Positions 1-8,926 of a stretch of 64,000 nucleotides of DNA are shown piece by piece. Below the pieces are notes generated by a model. The model made no database searches. It saw only the letters and a program-made list of their open reading frames with translations, and was not told the origin of the DNA. This DNA is from Prevotellaceae bacterium (GTDB lineage: Bacteria > Bacteroidota > Bacteroidia > Bacteroidales > Bacteroidaceae). The position numbers and the translations under genes are program-made. Where the stretch lies: the NCBI GenBank assembly GCA_031262785.1, contig JAISHB010000081.1:1-64000 (forward strand). The letters run 5' to 3'. Position 1 is the first letter of the stretch. The number at the start of each line of letters is the position of its first letter.

Positions 1-84
1 AGCCAACGTGTAGATGGTCATCATCAAATTGAAGTAAGCGCCCCGTTTGAGTTTCGGAAGTGTAATTTTAAGAAAAGTATTCAT
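1..84 (-). CDS. 5' end of an unidentified protein (partial)
   Basis: Only the first 28 codons of a leftward gene are inside the window. The ATG is the complement of 82-84. The peptide begins MNTFLKITLPKLKRG, which is basic, and continues into a hydrophobic run (FNLMMTIYTLA) that could be the start of a membrane segment. The family is not recognisable from so little. The reading frame stays open to the window edge, and the gene diverges from the DUF488 operon on the other side of the minisatellite. Confidence 0.5.
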   Translation of the reverse strand, partial: MNTFLKITLPKLKRGAYFNLMMTIYTLA

Positions 85-234
85 TTTGTTTGTTTTTAAA
101 TTAATAATTCTGTCGGCGAGGGAAAAAATGCCGCGTGAAGCAGTTTATTTTTTCCGATCGTCAGACCATAAACGATTGAAGTCGCCGAAAGGTTTCGACG
201 ATCTCAAAAAAAATTGAGAGAGGAGAATATCGCG

Positions 235-575
235 TCGACAATCAAAACGGATTTTTTTGGAGGTGTTGTATGGAATCGACAATCAAAACGGATTTTTGGG
301 AAGGCGTTGTATGGAATCGACAATCAAAACAGATTTTTTTGGAGGTGTTATTTGGAATCGACCATCGAAATGGATTTTTGGGAAGGCGTTGTATGGAATC
401 GACAATCGAGATAGATTTTTTTGGAGGTGTTATTTGGAGTCGACAATTAGAACAGACTTTTTTTGGGTCGTTGTGTGAGGTCTATAATCGCAAAATATGT
501 TTTTTAGGTCGTTGGATGGAATTTATAATTGAAATAGATTCTTTTGAAGTTGTTGGATGAAATTTATGGGTTGAA
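235..575. repeat. Tandem array, 41-bp unit, about 8.3 copies
   Basis: Units start at 235, 276, 317, 358, 399, 440, 481 and 522, with a fragment from 563, exactly 41 bp apart. Copies 1-5 are close to each other (TCGACAATCAAAACGG, a T-run, then GGAGGTGTT or GGGAAGGCGTT, then ATGGAA). Copies 6-8 are progressively degraded. Copies 1-5 alternate between a TTGGAGGTGTT form and a GGGAAGGCGTT form, which suggests duplication of an 82-bp pair. Because 41 is not a multiple of three, the same peptide words appear in all three frames, so the open frames here are a repeat artefact and not genes. Confidence 0.9.
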
Positions 576-944
576 TTTATTCTGGGCTGCCAACAAATAG
601 AGTTAGTGGGCTGAAAATAATGAAAGCGAGACTGTCGCAGACTTTCCTGATCTCACAATAATATATTGAGAATGTTGGAGGTGAGTCATCGCGTTATAAA
701 CTCAATAGCACAACCACTTCCTTTCTATGATACTAAATTGCAAGATATTTTCCAACATGTTTTTGGTTTGTCATTTAGTAAATAGCTAGGATTATTGCGG
801 ATTTAGATTATATATTAGGAAAGTCAAGCCGATAATCTAACCATTGACGATAGTATCCTAAATAAGATTAAAAAAAGCAGATGGCTGAGGTGTTATATTC
901 GCTACCGTTGAATTATTTAGTATCTTTACGACGATATAATTTAC
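576..944. other. A+T-rich gap upstream of the DUF488 operon
   Basis: No convincing gene is present. A 37-codon open frame at 672-785 (begins MLEVSHRVINSIAQPL) and a short open stretch near 840-890 read like plausible protein but match nothing I know, so they may be remnants of a decayed gene. A Bacteroidota -7-like element (TATCTTTA) sits at 921-928, 17 bases before the first DUF488 start. No good -33 partner is visible. Confidence 0.4.
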
Positions 945-1502
945 ATGATGATGAAATCAACAATATATTCCATTGGTCATGGGAACAAAACTATCGAAGA
1001 GTTTCTCAAAGAATTGAAGTCCTTCGATATAGATTTTCTTGTAGATATACGGTCCAAACCGTTTTCTAAGTGGAGTCCTCAATTTAATCAAACTTCTCTT
1101 CAATTAGAAGTTGAAAGAGAACATATAAAGTATGTATTTCTTGGGGATAAGTTAGGTGGCCTCCCTGACGATAGGAGTTGTTATGATAGTGAAGGTAAGG
1201 TTGTATATGGCTTTATGAAGAACAAGATTTTTTTTCAAGAAGGTTTGAAAAGACTAATTGTCGCAAATAATAAAGCAATAAAGGTTGCTATAATGTGTAG
1301 TGAATCCAAACCAGAAGAATGCCATAGAAGCAAGCTAATAGGAGAAGAATTACTTGATAATTTTAATATTTCAGTAAATCATATTATCGCTGAAAATAGA
1401 ATAAAATCTCAAGAAGTCGTTATTGGCGAACTTACAAATGGCTTCGGATTGGTAGATTTATTTGGAAATAAGACAGACTTTACGTCACGAAAATCATATT
1501 AG
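945..1502 (+). CDS. DUF488 family protein A
   Basis: A 185-residue protein of the DUF488 family (Pfam PF04343), whose biochemical role is not settled. It has the three family blocks: SIGHGN at residues 9-14, a DIRSKPFSKWSPQFN block at 34-48 and a C-terminal Cys-His-Arg block (MCSESKPEECHRS, 117-129, with C126-H127-R128). Three ATG codons in a row (945, 948, 951) leave the exact start open. It heads a tight three-gene unit: the next DUF488 gene starts one base after its stop. Its A+T-rich codon use contrasts with the G+C-rich genes from 3 kb onward, which suggests acquisition by transfer. The family assignment is firm; any function is unknown. Confidence 0.88.
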   Translation: MMMKSTIYSIGHGNKTIEEFLKELKSFDIDFLVDIRSKPFSKWSPQFNQTSLQLEVEREHIKYVFLGDKLGGLPDDRSCYDSEGKVVYGFMKNKIFFQEGLKRLIVANNKAIKVAIMCSESKPEECHRSKLIGEELLDNFNISVNHIIAENRIKSQEVVIGELTNGFGLVDLFGNKTDFTSRKSY

Positions 1503-1503
1503 C

Positions 1504-1980
1504 ATGGAATTCTTTACTATTGGAGTATATAAGTCAACGGAGAATGATTTCTTCGGAAAATTGGTAGGTAATAACATTGATACTTTCTGCGACATACGTC
1601 AAAGAAGGGGTGTTAGAGGTGCCGAATACAGTTTTGTTAATAGCCATTATCTACAACAGAGGTTACAGGATTTGAATATTAGATATGGTCACATATTAGG
1701 TTTAGCACCAACATCTGAAATAAGATATTTGCAAAAGCAAGAAGATTTACAGATTGGAAAACAAAAACGAGATAGAAATAAACTTGGGAAGGTTTTCATC
1801 CTTGCATATAAAGAGAAAATATTGAATCACTTTAGCTTTGATAATTTCATAGAACAATTAGATAATATTGGAGCTAATAGAGTAGTTCTATTCTGTGTAG
1901 AAGAAAAGGCGGAAGCCTGTCACCGATCAATAGTGGCAGATAAATTGGAGAAACAGGGATATCGAATTACGCATTTATGA
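1504..1980 (+). CDS. DUF488 family protein B
   Basis: A 158-residue second DUF488 protein, distant from its neighbour. The start at 1504 (MEFFTIGVYKS) is chosen because it lies one base after the upstream stop and places the TIG block at the N-terminus as in the family; an ATG 42 bases upstream would run inside the previous gene. The blocks are TIGVYKS at 5-11, DIRQRRGVRG at 30-39 and CVEEKAEACHRS at 131-142, again with a Cys-His-Arg motif (C139-H140-R141). Replacement of the RSKP/PQFN block by RQRRGVRG suggests a sub-type with a different ligand or partner. It overlaps the dual-OB gene by ATGA, implying translational coupling and joint function. Confidence 0.88.
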   Translation: MEFFTIGVYKSTENDFFGKLVGNNIDTFCDIRQRRGVRGAEYSFVNSHYLQQRLQDLNIRYGHILGLAPTSEIRYLQKQEDLQIGKQKRDRNKLGKVFILAYKEKILNHFSFDNFIEQLDNIGANRVVLFCVEEKAEACHRSIVADKLEKQGYRITHL

Positions 1981-2612
1981 AAGAAAACGTTTTGATTCTA
2001 TCAAAAACACAAATGGAAAATGGAGTTTGTGTAGGAGGACTTACTGACGGTGGTCGTTATGTTAGATTGCTTGATAATGGAGGAAGCAATCAGCCCAAGG
2101 ATACAAGTCTTGCGCCGTTACAAATATGGGAAATAGACTACGTTGCTAAGGCAAATACCCGTCCTCCTCATGTTGAAGACGTAGTAGTTCAAACTATGAT
2201 TAGGAAAGGGAGCTTAAATAGAGATGCTAATATTGAAGAATTTCTTAAAGTACGAAATGTACCTATTTGGAGAGGCACTCCTGATATGCTATTTGATGGT
2301 TTGGTGCAATGGACTTTAAAAGGAAGTGGTTATATTGATGCAGTAGGAGGTGTGCCTAATCATAGTGTTGGCTTTTGGATTAGCGATAAACCTCTTTATA
2401 AAACCGAGTATGAAGGCAGCATTAGATATAAATATCGATTTGATATATTTGACATAAATGGGAGAAGTATTAAGTATAAGGGTTTTGAAGATCCTGTAAG
2501 CCAGATTCCTGCGGGTACATTAATTCGCGTGTCTCTTGCTAGATGGTGGATTTCACCTTCGGATAATTCGGAAAAATGTTGGCTCCAATTGTCTGGCTGG
2601 TATAATTTGTAG
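1977..2612 (+). CDS. Dual OB-fold domain protein
   Basis: A 211-residue protein that starts inside the stop of DUF488 protein B (ATGA). The N-terminal part (ENVLILSKTQMENGVCVGGL followed by GGRYVRLLD) and the C-terminal strands (AGTLIRVSLARWW and a final CWLQLSGWY) look like two small beta-barrels, and I place it with proteins annotated as dual OB domain-containing, which are known to occur beside DUF488 genes. OB folds commonly bind nucleic acid or oligonucleotides, so this could be the recognition subunit of the three-gene unit; that is inference. It is A+T-rich like its two partners. No signal peptide or membrane segment is present, so it should be cytoplasmic. Confidence 0.7.
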   Translation: MKENVLILSKTQMENGVCVGGLTDGGRYVRLLDNGGSNQPKDTSLAPLQIWEIDYVAKANTRPPHVEDVVVQTMIRKGSLNRDANIEEFLKVRNVPIWRGTPDMLFDGLVQWTLKGSGYIDAVGGVPNHSVGFWISDKPLYKTEYEGSIRYKYRFDIFDINGRSIKYKGFEDPVSQIPAGTLIRVSLARWWISPSDNSEKCWLQLSGWYNL

Positions 2613-2949
2613 AGAAACTCTTTTCAATTAGAAAAGTTAGTTGAATTATCTTTCAATTTAGTATATGGGTGGAAGAGTGTTGCGGAAAGATATTCTAAAC
2701 TAGGCCATCTAAAAAATCTCTATCAATAATCAAGGACGTAAATAGAACTGTGTCATCCGGTGAAAAGTTACAAATTATGATTTCAAGTGATGTCATCACA
2801 AGCTGTGATGAGATAACGTTCATTCTTCAAGGCGCCAATTTGGCACCTTGAACATCTTCTGGCGTAATATCAGCACCCCACCACTCCGAAGCGCTGCGTT
2901 TTTTAGTTTCCCCATCCTACTCCACGACTAACAAAAAGTAACCAAACCA
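2613..2949. other. Gap with two hairpins downstream of the DUF488 operon
   Basis: No gene is seen. Two inverted repeats follow each other: CATCACA-AGC-TGTGATG at 2794-2810 (7-bp perfect stem) and a 27-base near-palindrome at 2826-2852 (TTCAAGGCGCC pairing with GGCACCTTGAA, one mismatch). Neither has a T-run, so they are not classic intrinsic terminators, although they could stop transcription leaving the DUF488 operon. Base composition rises toward the G+C level of the rest of the window after about 2830, which may mark the right boundary of the acquired island. Confidence 0.45.
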
Positions 2950-2980
2950 TTGCGCAAACACAAACTATTCGCTACTTTTG
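2950..2980 (+). promoter_or_regulatory. Bacteroidota-type promoter for tryptophanase
   Basis: TTG at 2950-2952 and TACTTTTG at 2973-2980 are separated by 20 bases, fitting the sigma-ABfr consensus (-33 TTTG, -7 TAnnTTTG). Transcription should begin close to 2987, giving a short leader before the ATG at 3020. No TnaC-like leader peptide with a tryptophan codon is apparent in that leader. Confidence 0.6.
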
Positions 2981-3019
2981 CCCCACTGACGGCGATGCAA
3001 CACGGCTGTTGGTAACTAA

Positions 3020-4411
3020 ATGTCAAAAAGAAAATCTATGGAAATCCCTTTCGCAGAATCGTGGAAAATTAAAATGGTGGAGCCTATCGTCAAGAGCACC
3101 CGCCAAGAACGTGAATTGTGGCTGCGCCAAGCAGATTACAATGTGTTTCAGCTTAAAGCCGAACAAGTGTACATCGACCTAATCACCGACTCGGGCACCG
3201 GAGCCATGAGCAACCGGCAATGGGCTGCCCTGATGATGGGTGACGAAAGCTACGCCGGCGCTTCCTCTTTCTTTCGTTTGAAGGAGACGATTGGGCGGCT
3301 CACCGGCTTCGATTATGTAATTCCTACCCATCAGGGACGGGCGGCGGAAAACGTGCTCTTTTCCTACCTCGTACACGAGGGAGACATCATTCCCGGCAAT
3401 TCACACTTCGACACCACCAAAGGACACATCGAAGGACGCAAAGCCGTGGCACTCGATTGCACCGTCGACGAAGCACGCAACACGCAGCTGGAAATTCCCT
3501 TTAAAGGAAATGTCGATGCAAAGAAACTCGAACGCGCGCTGGCCGAACAAGCCGATCGCATTCCTTTTATTATTGTCACCATCACCAACAACACCGCCGG
3601 CGGACAACCCGTATCGATGCAAAACTTGCGCGAGGTGCGCGCCGTGGCTGATCGCTACCATAAACCGGTGCTTTTTGATTCGGCACGCTTTGCCGAGAAT
3701 GCCTATTTCATTAAACTGCGTGAAACGGGATATGCCGACAAAACCATCAAAGAGATTACCCGCGAGATGTTCAGCTTGGCCGACGGTATGACCATGAGTG
3801 CCAAGAAAGACGGCATCGTCAACATGGGAGGATTCATCGCCACCCGACGCCAAGATTGGTACGAAGGCGCCAAAGGCTTTTGCGTGCAATACGAAGGTTA
3901 CCTCACCTATGGCGGCATGAACGGACGCGATATGGAAGCACTGGCCGTCGGATTGGACGAGAACACCGAGTTTGAGAATCTTGAAACACGCATTCGCCAA
4001 GTGCAGCATCTGGCACATCGATTAGACGAATACGGCATTCCCTACCAACGCCCCTTTGGCGGACATGCCATTTTTGTGGATGCGCCCGGCGTACTCACAC
4101 ATGTTCCCAAAGAAGAATTTCCGGCGCAAACGCTCACGGTGGAACTCTATTTGGAAGCAGGCATCAGAGGATGTGAAATAGGCTATTTACTGGCCGATCG
4201 CGACCCGATTACCCGCGAAAACAGATTCGACGGATTGGATTTGTTACGATTGGCCATTCCACGACGCGTCTACACCAACAATCACATGGATGTGGTGGCA
4301 GCGGCGCTCAAAAATGTTTTCGACCGACGCGAAAACATCACACGCGGCGTGCGCATTGCATGGGAAGCACCTCTGATGAGGCACTTCACCGTGAAATTAG
4401 AGCGATTATAA
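3020..4411 (+). CDS. tnaA: Tryptophanase
   Basis: A 463-residue PLP enzyme that cleaves L-tryptophan to indole, pyruvate and ammonia. It matches the tryptophanase/tyrosine phenol-lyase family along its whole length: YIDLITDSGTGAMS (51-64), PTHQGR (102-107), TITNNTAGGQPVS (187-199), DSARFAENAYFIK (220-232) and SAKKD (260-264) with K263 as the expected PLP lysine. I call tryptophanase and not tyrosine phenol-lyase because residue 387 in GIRGCEIG is Ile, where tyrosine phenol-lyases carry a substrate-binding Arg, and because DSARFAENAYF follows the tryptophanase form. It stands alone behind its own promoter, with no tryptophan permease beside it, and converges on the small YjdI-type gene. Cytoplasmic. 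Confidence 0.93.
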   Translation: MSKRKSMEIPFAESWKIKMVEPIVKSTRQERELWLRQADYNVFQLKAEQVYIDLITDSGTGAMSNRQWAALMMGDESYAGASSFFRLKETIGRLTGFDYVIPTHQGRAAENVLFSYLVHEGDIIPGNSHFDTTKGHIEGRKAVALDCTVDEARNTQLEIPFKGNVDAKKLERALAEQADRIPFIIVTITNNTAGGQPVSMQNLREVRAVADRYHKPVLFDSARFAENAYFIKLRETGYADKTIKEITREMFSLADGMTMSAKKDGIVNMGGFIATRRQDWYEGAKGFCVQYEGYLTYGGMNGRDMEALAVGLDENTEFENLETRIRQVQHLAHRLDEYGIPYQRPFGGHAIFVDAPGVLTHVPKEEFPAQTLTVELYLEAGIRGCEIGYLLADRDPITRENRFDGLDLLRLAIPRRVYTNNHMDVVAAALKNVFDRRENITRGVRIAWEAPLMRHFTVKLERL

Positions 4412-4425
4412 TAAAGAGGTAAACC

Positions 4426-4647
4426 CTACGACTTTCCACTCAGCCGATAGCTGAGTGCACCCGACGGGCAACGGTCGATTTGTTGCATCAACTCTTCAAC
4501 CGTTGCATGTTCGGGTTGTATCCATGGTTTTTCACCTACGCGGTAAACACAAGGGAGGGTGTGCACACAAATGCCGGAGTGGATGCACAAACGGGGCTGC
4601 CACACGATGGTGAGATTTTCCACCGCATATTCTTTTTTCATTTCCAT
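4426..4647 (-). CDS. YjdI-type divergent 4Fe-4S mono-cluster protein
   Basis: A 73-residue protein of the small YjdI/Fer4_19 type. Cysteines at 21, 27, 33 and 60 (C-x5-C-x5-C, then CP) give the four ligands expected for one 4Fe-4S cluster, and the RLCIHSGIC and RCPSGAL motifs are typical. The start is taken at 4647 (MEMKKEYAVENL); a start at 4641 would remove two residues, and the longer upstream frame belongs to the neighbouring acetyltransferase region. It lies just downstream of two leftward GNAT genes, and in enterobacteria a YjdI protein is also next to a YjdJ acetyltransferase, so the pairing is conserved. Its electron partner is unknown. Confidence 0.85.
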   Translation of the reverse strand: MEMKKEYAVENLTIVWQPRLCIHSGICVHTLPCVYRVGEKPWIQPEHATVEELMQQIDRCPSGALSYRLSGKS

Positions 4648-4666
4648 ATAATATAAATAGTATCTG

Positions 4667-4972
4667 TTATTGTACGTGATAACCGTGCTTGACAAGGCGC
4701 TTCCACTGGGGATGTTTGTGGATGTAAGAAGCCACAAACGGACAGAGAGGAACTACTTCCAATCCTTTTTGCTCGATGTCTTTGAGGGTTTGTTCTACCA
4801 ATTGCGAGCCGATGCCTTTGCCACCCAACGAAATGGGCACTTCGGTATGCGTCAGAAAAATATCTTTGCCGGCAGAAGGTTTCAGGTAAGAGATGAGCGC
4901 CAGGCGCTCGCCGATGCGAAATTCATACTGTCGACGTTCGGTGTTGTCGATCAGTTCATAGGGTTCGTTCAT
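4667..4972 (-). CDS. Small GNAT-type N-acetyltransferase (YjdJ/NATD1-like), copy 1
   Basis: A 101-residue mini-GNAT of the YjdJ/NATD1 type. It carries the acetyl-CoA binding block LGGKGIGSQLVEQTL and the downstream signature VVPLCPFVASYIHKHPQW that define this short family. It is much shorter than standard GNAT enzymes (about 150 residues), which is normal here. The substrate is unknown. A close paralogue follows 27 bases upstream in the same orientation, and the YjdI-like Fe-S gene follows downstream, so the three are probably co-transcribed leftward. Cytoplasmic. Confidence 0.87.
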   Translation of the reverse strand: MNEPYELIDNTERRQYEFRIGERLALISYLKPSAGKDIFLTHTEVPISLGGKGIGSQLVEQTLKDIEQKGLEVVPLCPFVASYIHKHPQWKRLVKHGYHVQ

Positions 4973-4999
4973 ACGCTTTTGAATGTGATAGGTGAAGAA

Positions 5000-5299
5000 T
5001 TAATTTGCGGAAACATCTTTCAAGACCAATTGCTTCCACTCGGGATGCTTGTTGATATACACCGTGATAAACGGACAAAGGGGAACTACGCGACGCCCTT
5101 CTTTCTGAAGATTGCGCAAGGTTTTTTCCACCAGCCAGCTGCCGATGCCTTTACCTCCCAATCCGAAGGGGACTTCGGTGCGGGTAAGATAGATGTCGTT
5201 GTCTGTTTGAATGTACTCGATGCGGGGAGTACAATTCTCTACATGGAATTCATATTGCTGAGATTCCGTGTTGTTGAAGAGTTCATAATCTGTTCTCAT
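5000..5299 (-). CDS. Small GNAT-type N-acetyltransferase (YjdJ/NATD1-like), copy 2
   Basis: A 99-residue paralogue of the gene just downstream. Shared words are LGGKGIGS, LVEKTL, VVPLCPF and KHPEWK, while the N-terminal third (ELFNNTESQQYEFHVEN) has diverged, so this is an older tandem duplication. Two copies suggest two substrates or dosage. It is the first gene of the leftward trio ending at 4426. No clear promoter consensus is visible in the complement of 5300-5400. The acetyl-acceptor cannot be predicted. Confidence 0.86.
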   Translation of the reverse strand: MRTDYELFNNTESQQYEFHVENCTPRIEYIQTDNDIYLTRTEVPFGLGGKGIGSWLVEKTLRNLQKEGRRVVPLCPFITVYINKHPEWKQLVLKDVSAN

Positions 5300-5453
5300 A
5301 CTTTTTGAATTTGTTTATTGGTTTTGGTTTTTGATTCTCGGGTTAGCAGGTTTTAATCTGTTGGTTATCTTGAGATTTCAAAGCTATAACGTAGAATGGA
5401 TTTAATTTGTTTTGAGGGTTATTTGTATCTTTGCGCACAAATGTGTGTATCTC

Positions 5454-6491
5454 ATGAAATGGATTACTGCCGTCGAACCTCCTTCCCGCGTGCCGCAAAT
5501 AGCACACACCCACCGTTTGCTGCTGATGGGGTCATGCTTTACTTCGAGTATCGGAGAATTGCTCCGCGAGGCTAAATTTCAATGCGACATCAATCCCTTC
5601 GGGGTGCTTTACAATCCGATCTCCATTGCCTCGGCACTGCGCGAGATAGCGGTTGGCAAACACTACACGCAGGAAGATCTCTTCTTTCACGGACAATGGC
5701 ATAGCCCGATGCATCACGGCGACTTCTCCGCTGCCACGTCCGAAGAAACACTGGCACGTATCCACATCCGCTTGCAACATGCGCACGCCCATCTTCCCCA
5801 AACAGACTATCTGCTGATTACTTTCGGCACGGCATACGTCTACCAAGCCAAGGCCGACGGCAGGGTGGTGGGCAACTGTCACAAGTTGCCGGAGCATTGC
5901 TTCACGCGTCGGCGCATCACCGCCGAAGAGATGGTCGAGGCCTACACCTCGTTGTTTGCGCTGCTGATGCAGGGCGATGCGGCGCTCGGCATCACAGGCA
6001 ATCCACACTTGAAAATCCTCTTCACCGTCAGTCCCATTCGCCATGCACGCGAGGGCATGCACGCCAACCAACTGAGCAAGGCCGTACTGCTATTGGCTAT
6101 CGACCAACTGCAAACGCGCTTTCCCGATTCGTGCTTCTATTTCCCCGCCTACGAGCTGATGATGGACGAACTACGCGACTACCGCTTCTACGCCGACGAC
6201 CTGCTGCATCCCTCATCGGTAGCCATTCAATACATCGGCGAGCAGTTTTTCCTCCATTGCCTTACGTCTCAGGCACAAGAAGCAGCCCGGGCCTGCATCC
6301 GGCTTGCCAAAGAGTTGGCGCATCGTCCGTTGCATCCCGATGCAGTTGAATACCGGCGTTTCTTGGAGCAACTGCTCGTAAAGATGCATCAGCTTGGCAG
6401 CCGCTATCCCTACTTAGCTTTCGATAAAGAAAAAGAACTATGTCATACTCGATTGAACAACTTGCCCACGACATGGGCGCCCGACGCATAG
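5454..6491 (+). CDS. GSCFA domain protein (SGNH-like)
   Basis: A 345-residue GSCFA-family protein, named for the GSCFT motif seen at residues 26-30. It also has FTVSPIRH and a late DDLLHPSS motif, giving the Ser-Asp-His arrangement of SGNH-type hydrolases; the substrate is unknown. The start at 5454 (MKWITAVEPP) is preferred to an in-frame ATG at 5412 because a -7 element TATCTTTG lies at 5426-5433, so transcription would start after 5412. The 3' end overlaps murF-alr by 52 bases, which implies co-transcription and hints at a role linked to the cell envelope. There is no signal peptide. Confidence 0.85.
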   Translation: MKWITAVEPPSRVPQIAHTHRLLLMGSCFTSSIGELLREAKFQCDINPFGVLYNPISIASALREIAVGKHYTQEDLFFHGQWHSPMHHGDFSAATSEETLARIHIRLQHAHAHLPQTDYLLITFGTAYVYQAKADGRVVGNCHKLPEHCFTRRRITAEEMVEAYTSLFALLMQGDAALGITGNPHLKILFTVSPIRHAREGMHANQLSKAVLLLAIDQLQTRFPDSCFYFPAYELMMDELRDYRFYADDLLHPSSVAIQYIGEQFFLHCLTSQAQEAARACIRLAKELAHRPLHPDAVEYRRFLEQLLVKMHQLGSRYPYLAFDKEKELCHTRLNNLPTTWAPDA

Positions 6492-8926
6492 GCCAGGCAC
6501 CGGCCCATCTCAACTGGCTGCTCACCGACAGCCGCTCGCTCTGCTTTCCGGAAGAGACACTCTTCTTTGCCCTGCACACTAAGCGCAACGACGGAGCACG
6601 TTACCTTGCCGATCTCTATGCCCGCGGCGTGCGCAACTTTGTGTTACGCCCGGAAAGTCTGCAGGCCTTCGGCATCGACCCCGCCACCTTGGCCGAGGCC
6701 AACTTCTTGTTGGTAGACCACCCCTTGAAGGCCTTGCAAAAGCTGGCCGAGCGGCATCGCAAACGCTTCAATATCCCCGTCATCGGCATCACCGGAAGCA
6801 ATGGCAAGACGGTGGTCAAAGAGTGGTTGCACCAACTGCTCAGTCCCGATCGTTCCATTGTGCGCTCGCCGCGCTCCTACAACTCTCAAATAGGCGTGCC
6901 CCTGTCGGTATGGCAACTGGGCGGGCAGACCCAATTGGGTATCTTCGAGGCCGGCATCTCGGAGCTGAACGAGATGTCGTCGTTGCAAAGCATCATCCGT
7001 CCCACCATCGGCATTCTCACCAACATCGGCAGTGCACATCAGGAAAACTTCTTCTCGCTGCAAGAGAAGTGCATGGAAAAGCTCACCCTCTTCAAGGATT
7101 GCGACGTGGTGATCTACAACGGCGACGACGAGTTCGTGAGCAACTGCATGAGCAAGATGCTTTTCCCCGTCCGCGAGATTGCCTGGAGCTGCAAAGACGT
7201 GGAACGTCCGCTCTACATCAGCCGTATCGACAAGCAGGAGAACACCACCCGCATCGACTACCGCTACTTAGGCATGGTCAACAGCTTTGTCATCCCTTTT
7301 ATCGACGATGCCTCCATAGAAAACGCCCTCCACTGTCTGGCCACCTGTCTCTACCTGATGATGCCCGCCCGGCAGATCACCGCGCGGATGGCACACCTCG
7401 AGCCGGTGGCCATGCGCTTGGAGGTGAAAGAGGGCAAAGAGGGATGCCAGCTCATCAACGACAGCTACAACTCCGACATGGCCTCGCTCGACATCGCCCT
7501 CGACTTTCTCTACCGTCGTTCGCTCTCGACGGGGCTGAAACGCACGCTCATCTTGTCCGACATCTTGGAGAGTGGCCAAAGCGCCGCCTCGCTCTACCGC
7601 CGTGTGGGGCAGTTGGTGCGCAAACGGGGCATCGACCGCATCATTGGCGTGGGACGCAACCTCGAGGCCAACGCCGCCGCCTTCGATATGGACAGCTGTT
7701 TCTTTGCCGACACCGACGGCCTGATGCAGGCAGTGGCGCACGGGCAGCTCCGCTTTCGCGACGAGCTGATTCTCATCAAAGGTGCCCGCCGCTTCGGCTT
7801 CGACGCCCTGGCCGAAGTGTTGGAAAAGAAGGTGCACGAGACCATCCTCGAAGTCAACCTCGGTGCCTTGGTGGACAACCTCAATTACTACCGCGGTTTG
7901 CTCGAAAGTGACACCAAAATGGTCTGCATGGTGAAAGCCTCAGCCTATGGTGCCGGCTCCTACCAGATAGCCAAGACGCTGCAAGAGCATCGCGTCGATT
8001 ACTTAGCCGTGGCCGTGGCCGACGAAGGCTCGGAGTTGCGCAAGGCGGGCATCACCGCGGGTATTCTGGTGATGAATCCCGAGATGACCGCCTTCAAGAC
8101 GATATTCGACTACGAGTTGGAGCCTGAAGTGTACAGTTTCCACCTGCTCGAAGCGCTCATCGGCGCAGCCCAACGCCAAGGCATCACCCGCTATCCCATA
8201 CATTTGAAGATCGACACCGGCATGCACCGTTTGGGCTTCGCACCCGAAGAGATTCCCGCGCTCACCAGCCGCCTGCAAGCGCAAGACAGCCTCATTGTCC
8301 GCTCGGTCTTCTCCCATCTGGTGGGTGCCGACGACGCCCGCTTCGACGACTTCACGCAGCAGCAGATTAGTATCTTCGCCCAAGTGGCCGACACCCTGCA
8401 ACAAGCCTTTCCCCACAAACTCTTGCGCCACCTCTGCAATTCGGCAGGCATCCAACGCTTCCCCGAGGCGCAATTCGACATGGTTCGGTTGGGTATCGGC
8501 CTGTACGGCATCAATCCCGTCGGCACTCCCCCCTTGCACAACGTCAGCACGCTGCGCACCACCATCTTGCAAATACGTACTGTGGAGGCCGGCGACACGG
8601 TGGGCTACAATCGCAGCGGAAAGCTGGTTCGCCCCTCGCGCATTGCCGCCCTGCCCATTGGGTATGCCGACGGATTGAACCGCAAGCTGGGCAATGGTGC
8701 CGCCTATTGCTTGGTGGGCGGCCGTCCGGCGCCTTATGTAGGCAATATCTGCATGGATGTGTGTATGATCGACGTCACCGACATTGCGTGTCGCGAGGGC
8801 GACGCGGTGGAGATCTTCGGGGAGGGCTTGTCCGTCTCCCGCTTGGCCGAGGTCTTGGGCACCATCCCCTATGAACTGCTCACCACCGTCTCGACGCGCG
8901 TCAAGCGAATCTATTATCAGGAGTAA
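6440..8926 (+). CDS. murF: MurF-alanine racemase fusion
   Basis: An 828-residue bifunctional enzyme typical of Bacteroidota. The N-terminal half is MurF, which adds D-Ala-D-Ala to UDP-MurNAc-tripeptide using ATP: P-loop GITGSNGKT at 116-124, then LTNIGSAHQENF and INDSYNSD. The C-terminal part, from about residue 465 (EVNLGALVDNL), is a fold-type III alanine racemase with the PLP lysine K499 in MVKASAYGAG and the late blocks LPIGYADGLNRKLGNG and VGNICMDVCMIDVT. The fusion joins formation of D-Ala to its use in the same cytoplasmic pathway. The start lies within the 3' end of the GSCFA gene. All key motifs are intact, so both activities are expected. Confidence 0.96.
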   Translation: MSYSIEQLAHDMGARRIGQAPAHLNWLLTDSRSLCFPEETLFFALHTKRNDGARYLADLYARGVRNFVLRPESLQAFGIDPATLAEANFLLVDHPLKALQKLAERHRKRFNIPVIGITGSNGKTVVKEWLHQLLSPDRSIVRSPRSYNSQIGVPLSVWQLGGQTQLGIFEAGISELNEMSSLQSIIRPTIGILTNIGSAHQENFFSLQEKCMEKLTLFKDCDVVIYNGDDEFVSNCMSKMLFPVREIAWSCKDVERPLYISRIDKQENTTRIDYRYLGMVNSFVIPFIDDASIENALHCLATCLYLMMPARQITARMAHLEPVAMRLEVKEGKEGCQLINDSYNSDMASLDIALDFLYRRSLSTGLKRTLILSDILESGQSAASLYRRVGQLVRKRGIDRIIGVGRNLEANAAAFDMDSCFFADTDGLMQAVAHGQLRFRDELILIKGARRFGFDALAEVLEKKVHETILEVNLGALVDNLNYYRGLLESDTKMVCMVKASAYGAGSYQIAKTLQEHRVDYLAVAVADEGSELRKAGITAGILVMNPEMTAFKTIFDYELEPEVYSFHLLEALIGAAQRQGITRYPIHLKIDTGMHRLGFAPEEIPALTSRLQAQDSLIVRSVFSHLVGADDARFDDFTQQQISIFAQVADTLQQAFPHKLLRHLCNSAGIQRFPEAQFDMVRLGIGLYGINPVGTPPLHNVSTLRTTILQIRTVEAGDTVGYNRSGKLVRPSRIAALPIGYADGLNRKLGNGAAYCLVGGRPAPYVGNICMDVCMIDVTDIACREGDAVEIFGEGLSVSRLAEVLGTIPYELLTTVSTRVKRIYYQE

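Follow-up and report, generated by a model that had tools for sequence, protein, structure and literature searches.

Near its left end, a 64,000-nt stretch of a Prevotellaceae genome (hereafter, the window) carries a low-G+C island that encodes two different DUF488 proteins, B and C, and a tandem-OB protein, DuOB (Table 1). We suggest that this trio is a three-protein, horizontally spread DNA-handling unit and a candidate antiviral (or anti-mobile-element) system, a divergent relative of the listed candidate PDC-M45. We put the probability of this reading at about one half. No settled reaction has been assigned to the widespread DUF488 family, and no mechanism to the listed defence candidate PDC-M45. 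The heteromeric composition of the set, an SSB-type tip on some of the OB proteins and the occurrence of UDG and UvrB genes next to single DUF488 genes lead to concrete hypotheses, namely single-stranded DNA (ssDNA) binding, docking of SSB partners and cysteine chemistry on DNA.

Table 1. Features of the three-gene island (window coordinates) and DuOB fusions at related loci (locus coordinates)
Feature	Coordinates	Strand	Evidence
DUF488 protein B, 185 aa	945..1502	+	PF04343 E=3.5e-20; PADLOC PDC-M45B E=1.3e-47
DUF488 protein C, 158 aa	1504..1980	+	PF04343 E=2.5e-11; PADLOC PDC-M45C E=3.5e-14
DuOB protein, tandem OB fold, 211 aa	1977..2612	+	PF22557 E=1.7e-19; AF2 pLDDT 96.5
B/C gap, 1 nt (TAG C ATG)	1503..1503	+	sequence
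C/DuOB stop/start overlap ATGA	1977..1980	+	sequence
DuOB fusions	L141:3032-4057; L142:9387-10523; L145:9477-10505; L147:9477-10547		RecE-like C-terminus (phrog_434), phrog_6244; Sipho_Gp157 and Mu Gam weak in some

A first-pass annotation, made from the letters of the window alone, had described two different DUF488 genes and a dual-OB gene joined by a single-base gap and a stop/start overlap. Both junctions are present in the sequence, and all three products scored above the Pfam gathering thresholds: 73.3 bits for B and 44.7 bits for C against DUF488 (PF04343; threshold, 22.2), and 71.1 bits for the third product against DuOB (PF22557; threshold, 27). DuOB was the sole Pfam match of the third protein at E<=10, the SSB OB domain (PF00436) being absent, and B and C stayed below the gathering threshold of DUF488-N3a (PF22751; 17.6 and 24.9 bits; threshold, 27). 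The same annotation had remarked on a lower G+C content, and the island is indeed 35.0% G+C versus 56.7% for window positions 3020-64000. The lowest value for any 1,668-nt stretch in the rest of the window, sampled every 200 nt, is 47.2%, and GC3 is 26-27% in the island genes versus 58% in the next gene.

The surroundings of the island are less sharply defined. On the left flank, where a minisatellite and decayed sequence had been reported, the minisatellite is real (period 41 bp, positions 235-466 and 483-567), and no decayed gene was established. The same repeat family is also present, at 75-79% identity, on two other contigs of the genome (C62 and C65). It is therefore not peculiar to the island, and we rejected it as a component of the system for this reason. 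Candidate repeats that might delimit the island were only short pairs (896/2966 and 730/2644) that could have arisen by chance. In an empty-site comparison with six relatives from the genus, the next gene (3020-4411) was conserved and nothing to its left could be aligned. This pattern is compatible with the insertion of an island, at a level of synteny within the genus too low for defining its ends. Sequence further left is unseen because the window starts at the end of its contig (C15), in a genome that is 76% complete. On reading positions 1-8000 of the window, without a PADLOC scan, we noticed no known defence gene flanking it.

The combination of families is not wholly novel, as PADLOC-DB 2.0.0 already lists DuOB plus two DUF488 proteins as candidate PDC-M45. 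The PDC entries stem from a guilt-by-embedding screen; they are candidates, and most await experimental validation (PMC12988326). B matched the PDC-M45B model (PDLC04657) and C the PDC-M45C model (PDLC04658); the PDC-M45 definition asks for adjacent, co-directed genes, and the window trio is so arranged. Neither the window DuOB nor its relative at locus L047 (Flavobacterium ichthyis) matched the PDC-M45A models (PDLC04653-56) at E<=1. The DuOB of locus L072 did match them, which identifies PDC-M45A as a DuOB protein. Since the window DuOB falls outside the M45A models but within Pfam DuOB, the window operon is, by its profile matches, a divergent variant of PDC-M45 and not a strict member. The two share the same three families and a tight coupling of genes, and L072 has the B-C-DuOB order of the window. 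They differ in that some members of the window clade have SSB-type tips or recombination-domain fusions. Our literature searches found no paper testing PDC-M45 or DuOB, and nothing on DuOB or DUF488-N3.

PDC-M19, in which a larger DUF488 protein (A) accompanies an OB-like partner (B), is a second listed candidate with some likeness to the trio: its partner has a similar N-terminal motif (L077, L078 and a Sulfitobacter plasmid). Unlike the trio, it consists of two genes, not three, and its partner is missed by both PF22557 and the DuOB profile. The window DuOB had no PADLOC match at all, PDC-M19B included.

To follow the three genes beyond the window, we used gene C as the only seed in a scan of 85,462 species genomes, and obtained 80 loci, or 81 with one viral contig. 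All three genes were present at 76 of the 81, a count that is conditional on C and includes a few near-duplicate loci; one of the five incomplete loci is interrupted by a contig end. Gene order among the 76 was B-C-DuOB in 67, B-C-DuOB with a second DuOB match in five, and DuOB-B-C in four. Spacing was equally tight, with a median of 1 nt from the stop of B to the match of C and mostly <=5 nt from the stop of C to the match of DuOB. That the same partners recur in a rearranged order favours a functional set over the passive inheritance of a fragment. Inheritance of the three genes as a tight operon supports the single functional unit that the first-pass annotation had supposed; its homologues were neither mostly apart nor in core-genome positions, and their presence was sporadic.

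Among 198 genomes of the order, 6 have DuOB, as do 11 of 396 from the phylum. Within the genus, a close C gene was found only in the window's own genome, and 25 of 31 genomes gave no match. Members from Methylococcales, a betaproteobacterium and Achromatium nest among Bacteroidota in the tree, most branches of which are weakly supported. Together with the 76 complete loci and the near-zero spacing, these proteobacterial members indicate one unit that moves horizontally. The Rhodothermus plasmid pRMAR01 carries the trio. None of 50,697 phage records matched, and a single contig among 2.9 million viral contigs had it, with a gene C identical to that of a Bacteroides graminisolvens locus in the tree. 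The trio is therefore not mainly phage-borne, and a phage origin was rejected.

We then scored the association with defence islands by scanning 348 non-redundant neighbour genes of the trio against PADLOC (E<=1e-20, three batches). These genes matched 127 + 91 + 105 = 323 PADLOC models, versus six models in 111 neighbours of single DUF488 genes; the census counts models, not distinct genes, and models of R-M specificity subunits overlap heavily, so that the ratio of trio to control overstates the effect. The matches span about twenty system types, including type I and IIG R-M, Argonaute, retron/DRT, Mokosh, PsyrTA, Pycsar, AbiE, AbiL and Dpd. On pRMAR01, the trio belongs to a CRISPR locus, where it immediately precedes cas1-cas2 (DUF488, DUF488, DuOB, cas1, cas2, a J-domain gene and cas6, with csx2 and csm6 beyond). 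A chromosome-sized contig from the same family of genomes (L057) has the same arrangement beside a CRISPR-like repeat array, and its cas2 was confirmed by Pfam.

Single DUF488 genes have neighbours of another kind. Two of them (L060:8916-10189 and L067:8887-10140) lie directly downstream of a gene for a UDG-superfamily glycosylase, with gaps of 29 and 6 nt. On Acinetobacter and Comamonas plasmids, DUF488 is followed by uvrB (L242:5001-7652 and L243:5001-7734), and a Sulfitobacter plasmid has a DUF488 gene with a PDC-M19B-like partner (L241:4974-6214), SSB and RadC genes being nearby. The UDG and uvrB genes that adjoin single DUF488 genes are a hint that the DUF488 family may act on DNA.

These neighbourhoods also bear on an alternative in which the trio is an accessory operon for DNA repair or base processing. 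DuOB would then present ssDNA or lesions, the DUF488 pair would remove or reverse a base or end modification, and their location in islands would simply reflect the tendency of islands to accumulate genes of this kind. The glycosylase and uvrB linkage of single DUF488 genes would fit, as would the SSB-type tip on some DuOBs, the SSB gene near the trio on pRMAR01, and the RadC and SSB genes near DUF488 and its partner on the Sulfitobacter plasmid. We consider this alternative unlikely, given that the neighbours of the trio are far richer in defence models than those of single DUF488 genes and that a sporadic, horizontal distribution is unlike that of a core repair function. A role in defence against viruses or mobile elements remains our preferred reading.

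Both DUF488 proteins appear to retain an intact site. The putative catalytic residues of B are D34, R36, C118, E120, C126, H127, R128 and H146, of which C118, C126, H127, R128 and H146 are invariant in 71 of 71 sequences; C131, E133, C139, H140 and R141 of C are invariant in 82 of 82. The site shared by the two paralogues comprises Asp-x-Arg and Cys-x-Glu-x5-Cys-His-Arg. The Asp-x-Arg pair and Cys-x7-Cys-His-Arg are invariant across the 71 B and 82 C sequences, although for Asp-x-Arg in C this is partly by construction, as the scan pattern contained it. The Cys-His-Arg motif previously noticed in the two window proteins thus extends to all of these relatives. The two central blocks named in the first-pass annotation differ in conservation: RRxVRG in C, within the arginine-rich DIRQRRGVRG block that precedes the CxE-x5-CHR site, is essentially invariant (82 sequences), whereas the PQFN block of B is not strongly kept (Q in 29 of 71, F in 63 of 71). 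Invariant arginines exclusive to C are R35 and R38 of RRxVRG, R74 and R91. A pairing of one active with one dead DUF488 protein was rejected, as B and C both retain all putative catalytic residues.

The AF2 model of B was confident (pLDDT 95.6), and a profile search found no solved DUF488 structure. PTP-type cysteine phosphatases were the best folds for this model in both Foldseek libraries, at weak scores (E 2e-3 to 3e-3). DUF488 does not have the C-x5-R phosphate-binding loop of PTP phosphatases and has C-x7-C-H-R instead, so we do not class it with these enzymes. Its residues are also spaced in a way that would be compatible with a metal site (Cys, Cys, His, His). Two elaborations were seen among the relatives: a B protein with an additional N-terminal region of ~190 aa that starts with a hydrophobic stretch (L127:7892-8992), and a divergent subgroup (L073:6799-8280 and L074:2397-3821) in which the DUF488 pair is preceded by a coupled fourth gene, one with weak similarity to HAD/NIF-type phosphatases.

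Small, translationally coupled genes in islands, with Abi and toxin-antitoxin genes nearby, could also be a toxin-antitoxin or abortive-infection module, in which one DUF488 protein or the pair would be toxic and DuOB would restrain or trigger it. There are three conserved genes, however, not two; the full putative catalytic set is kept in both DUF488 proteins; and no match to a known toxin family was found in Pfam or PADLOC. We regard such a module as improbable and continue to favour a DNA-handling defence unit.

The OB folds of the third protein, previously a guess, are predicted both by Pfam and by a confident AF2 model (61 sequences), and resemble those of nucleic-acid binders. The best PDB matches in Foldseek were HIN domains of innate DNA sensors, POT1, RecO, CST and RPA, all of them OB proteins. 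These matches are weak (best E 1e-3, low TM-scores), so they support the fold class but not a specific relative. Further matches of the OB folds are eIF1A and lysyl-tRNA synthetase. This, and the weak likeness of DUF488 to cysteine phosphatases, could mean that the targets of DuOB and the DUF488 pair are RNA or free nucleotides (in signalling or in the depletion of nucleotides) and not ssDNA. We regard this as improbable, as the SSB-type tips and RecE/Gam-like fusions of some DuOBs point to DNA, and so does the UDG and UvrB linkage of DUF488.

The SSB-type tip on part of the window-clade DuOBs is new here. An acidic tip of the DDLPF type, which resembles the docking tip of bacterial SSB, ends 18 of 79 DuOB relatives, versus 0 of 879 neighbour proteins and 0 of 152 DUF488 proteins. 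Parsimony places 13 tip changes on the tree, of which the starred branches force only two. The window DuOB ends in WYNL, without an acidic tip, which most relatives also lack, so the idea of docking through the tip is inapplicable to the window copy. Chromosomal SSBs of the same host genomes carry an acidic tip like that of the tipped DuOBs. The suggestion that the DuOB tip tracks that of the host SSB was unsupported, many hosts pairing tipped SSBs with untipped DuOBs. At the end where others carry the tip, DuOBs of a rumen/horse Bacteroidales group have a C-terminal fusion (Table 1), which matches the C-terminal part of RecE-like phage exonucleases (best E 7.9e-8) and has weak matches to Mu Gam-like proteins. 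Another member of the family carries TPRs. With the tip and the domain fusions at the same end, the DuOB C-terminus looks like an exchangeable docking module.

Taken as a defence unit, the trio most likely comprises a putative ssDNA-binding sensor or adaptor, DuOB, and a putative cysteine-dependent effector, the DUF488 pair. DuOB would bind single-stranded nucleic acid that becomes exposed as phages replicate or recombine. In certain lineages, the SSB-type acidic tip or RecE/Gam-like domain would let it dock repair or recombination proteins, and the DUF488 proteins would act jointly on that DNA or on nucleotides. A more elaborate version, which we offer tentatively and think rather unlikely, is immunity by SSB mimicry: the dual-OB protein, encoded by the host, would coat the ssDNA of replicating phage, its tip or RecE/Gam-like module would pull in or displace SSB-dependent enzymes, and the paired cysteine enzymes would thereby be delivered for a new reaction on DNA.

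Like bacterial SSB, DuOB is an OB-type protein, and part of its family shares the acidic tip of the hosts' SSBs; unlike SSB, it has two OB folds per chain and no PF00436 domain, and the window copy is untipped. Several defences, including AbpAB, Hna and Retron-Eco8, are triggered by phage SSB or by SSB-ssDNA complexes (PMC10732053, PMC13381803, PMC12887533). The ssDNA sensing proposed for DuOB would be analogous to the triggering of these systems and of Hachiman, but here the OB protein is encoded in the host operon itself. To our knowledge, the trio has no homologous components in AbpAB, Hna, Retron-Eco8 or Hachiman. The only SSB found in the window's genome, itself 76% complete, ends in ASSTPL without an acidic tip (L160:1438-1881), unlike the SSBs of most related hosts, which have one.
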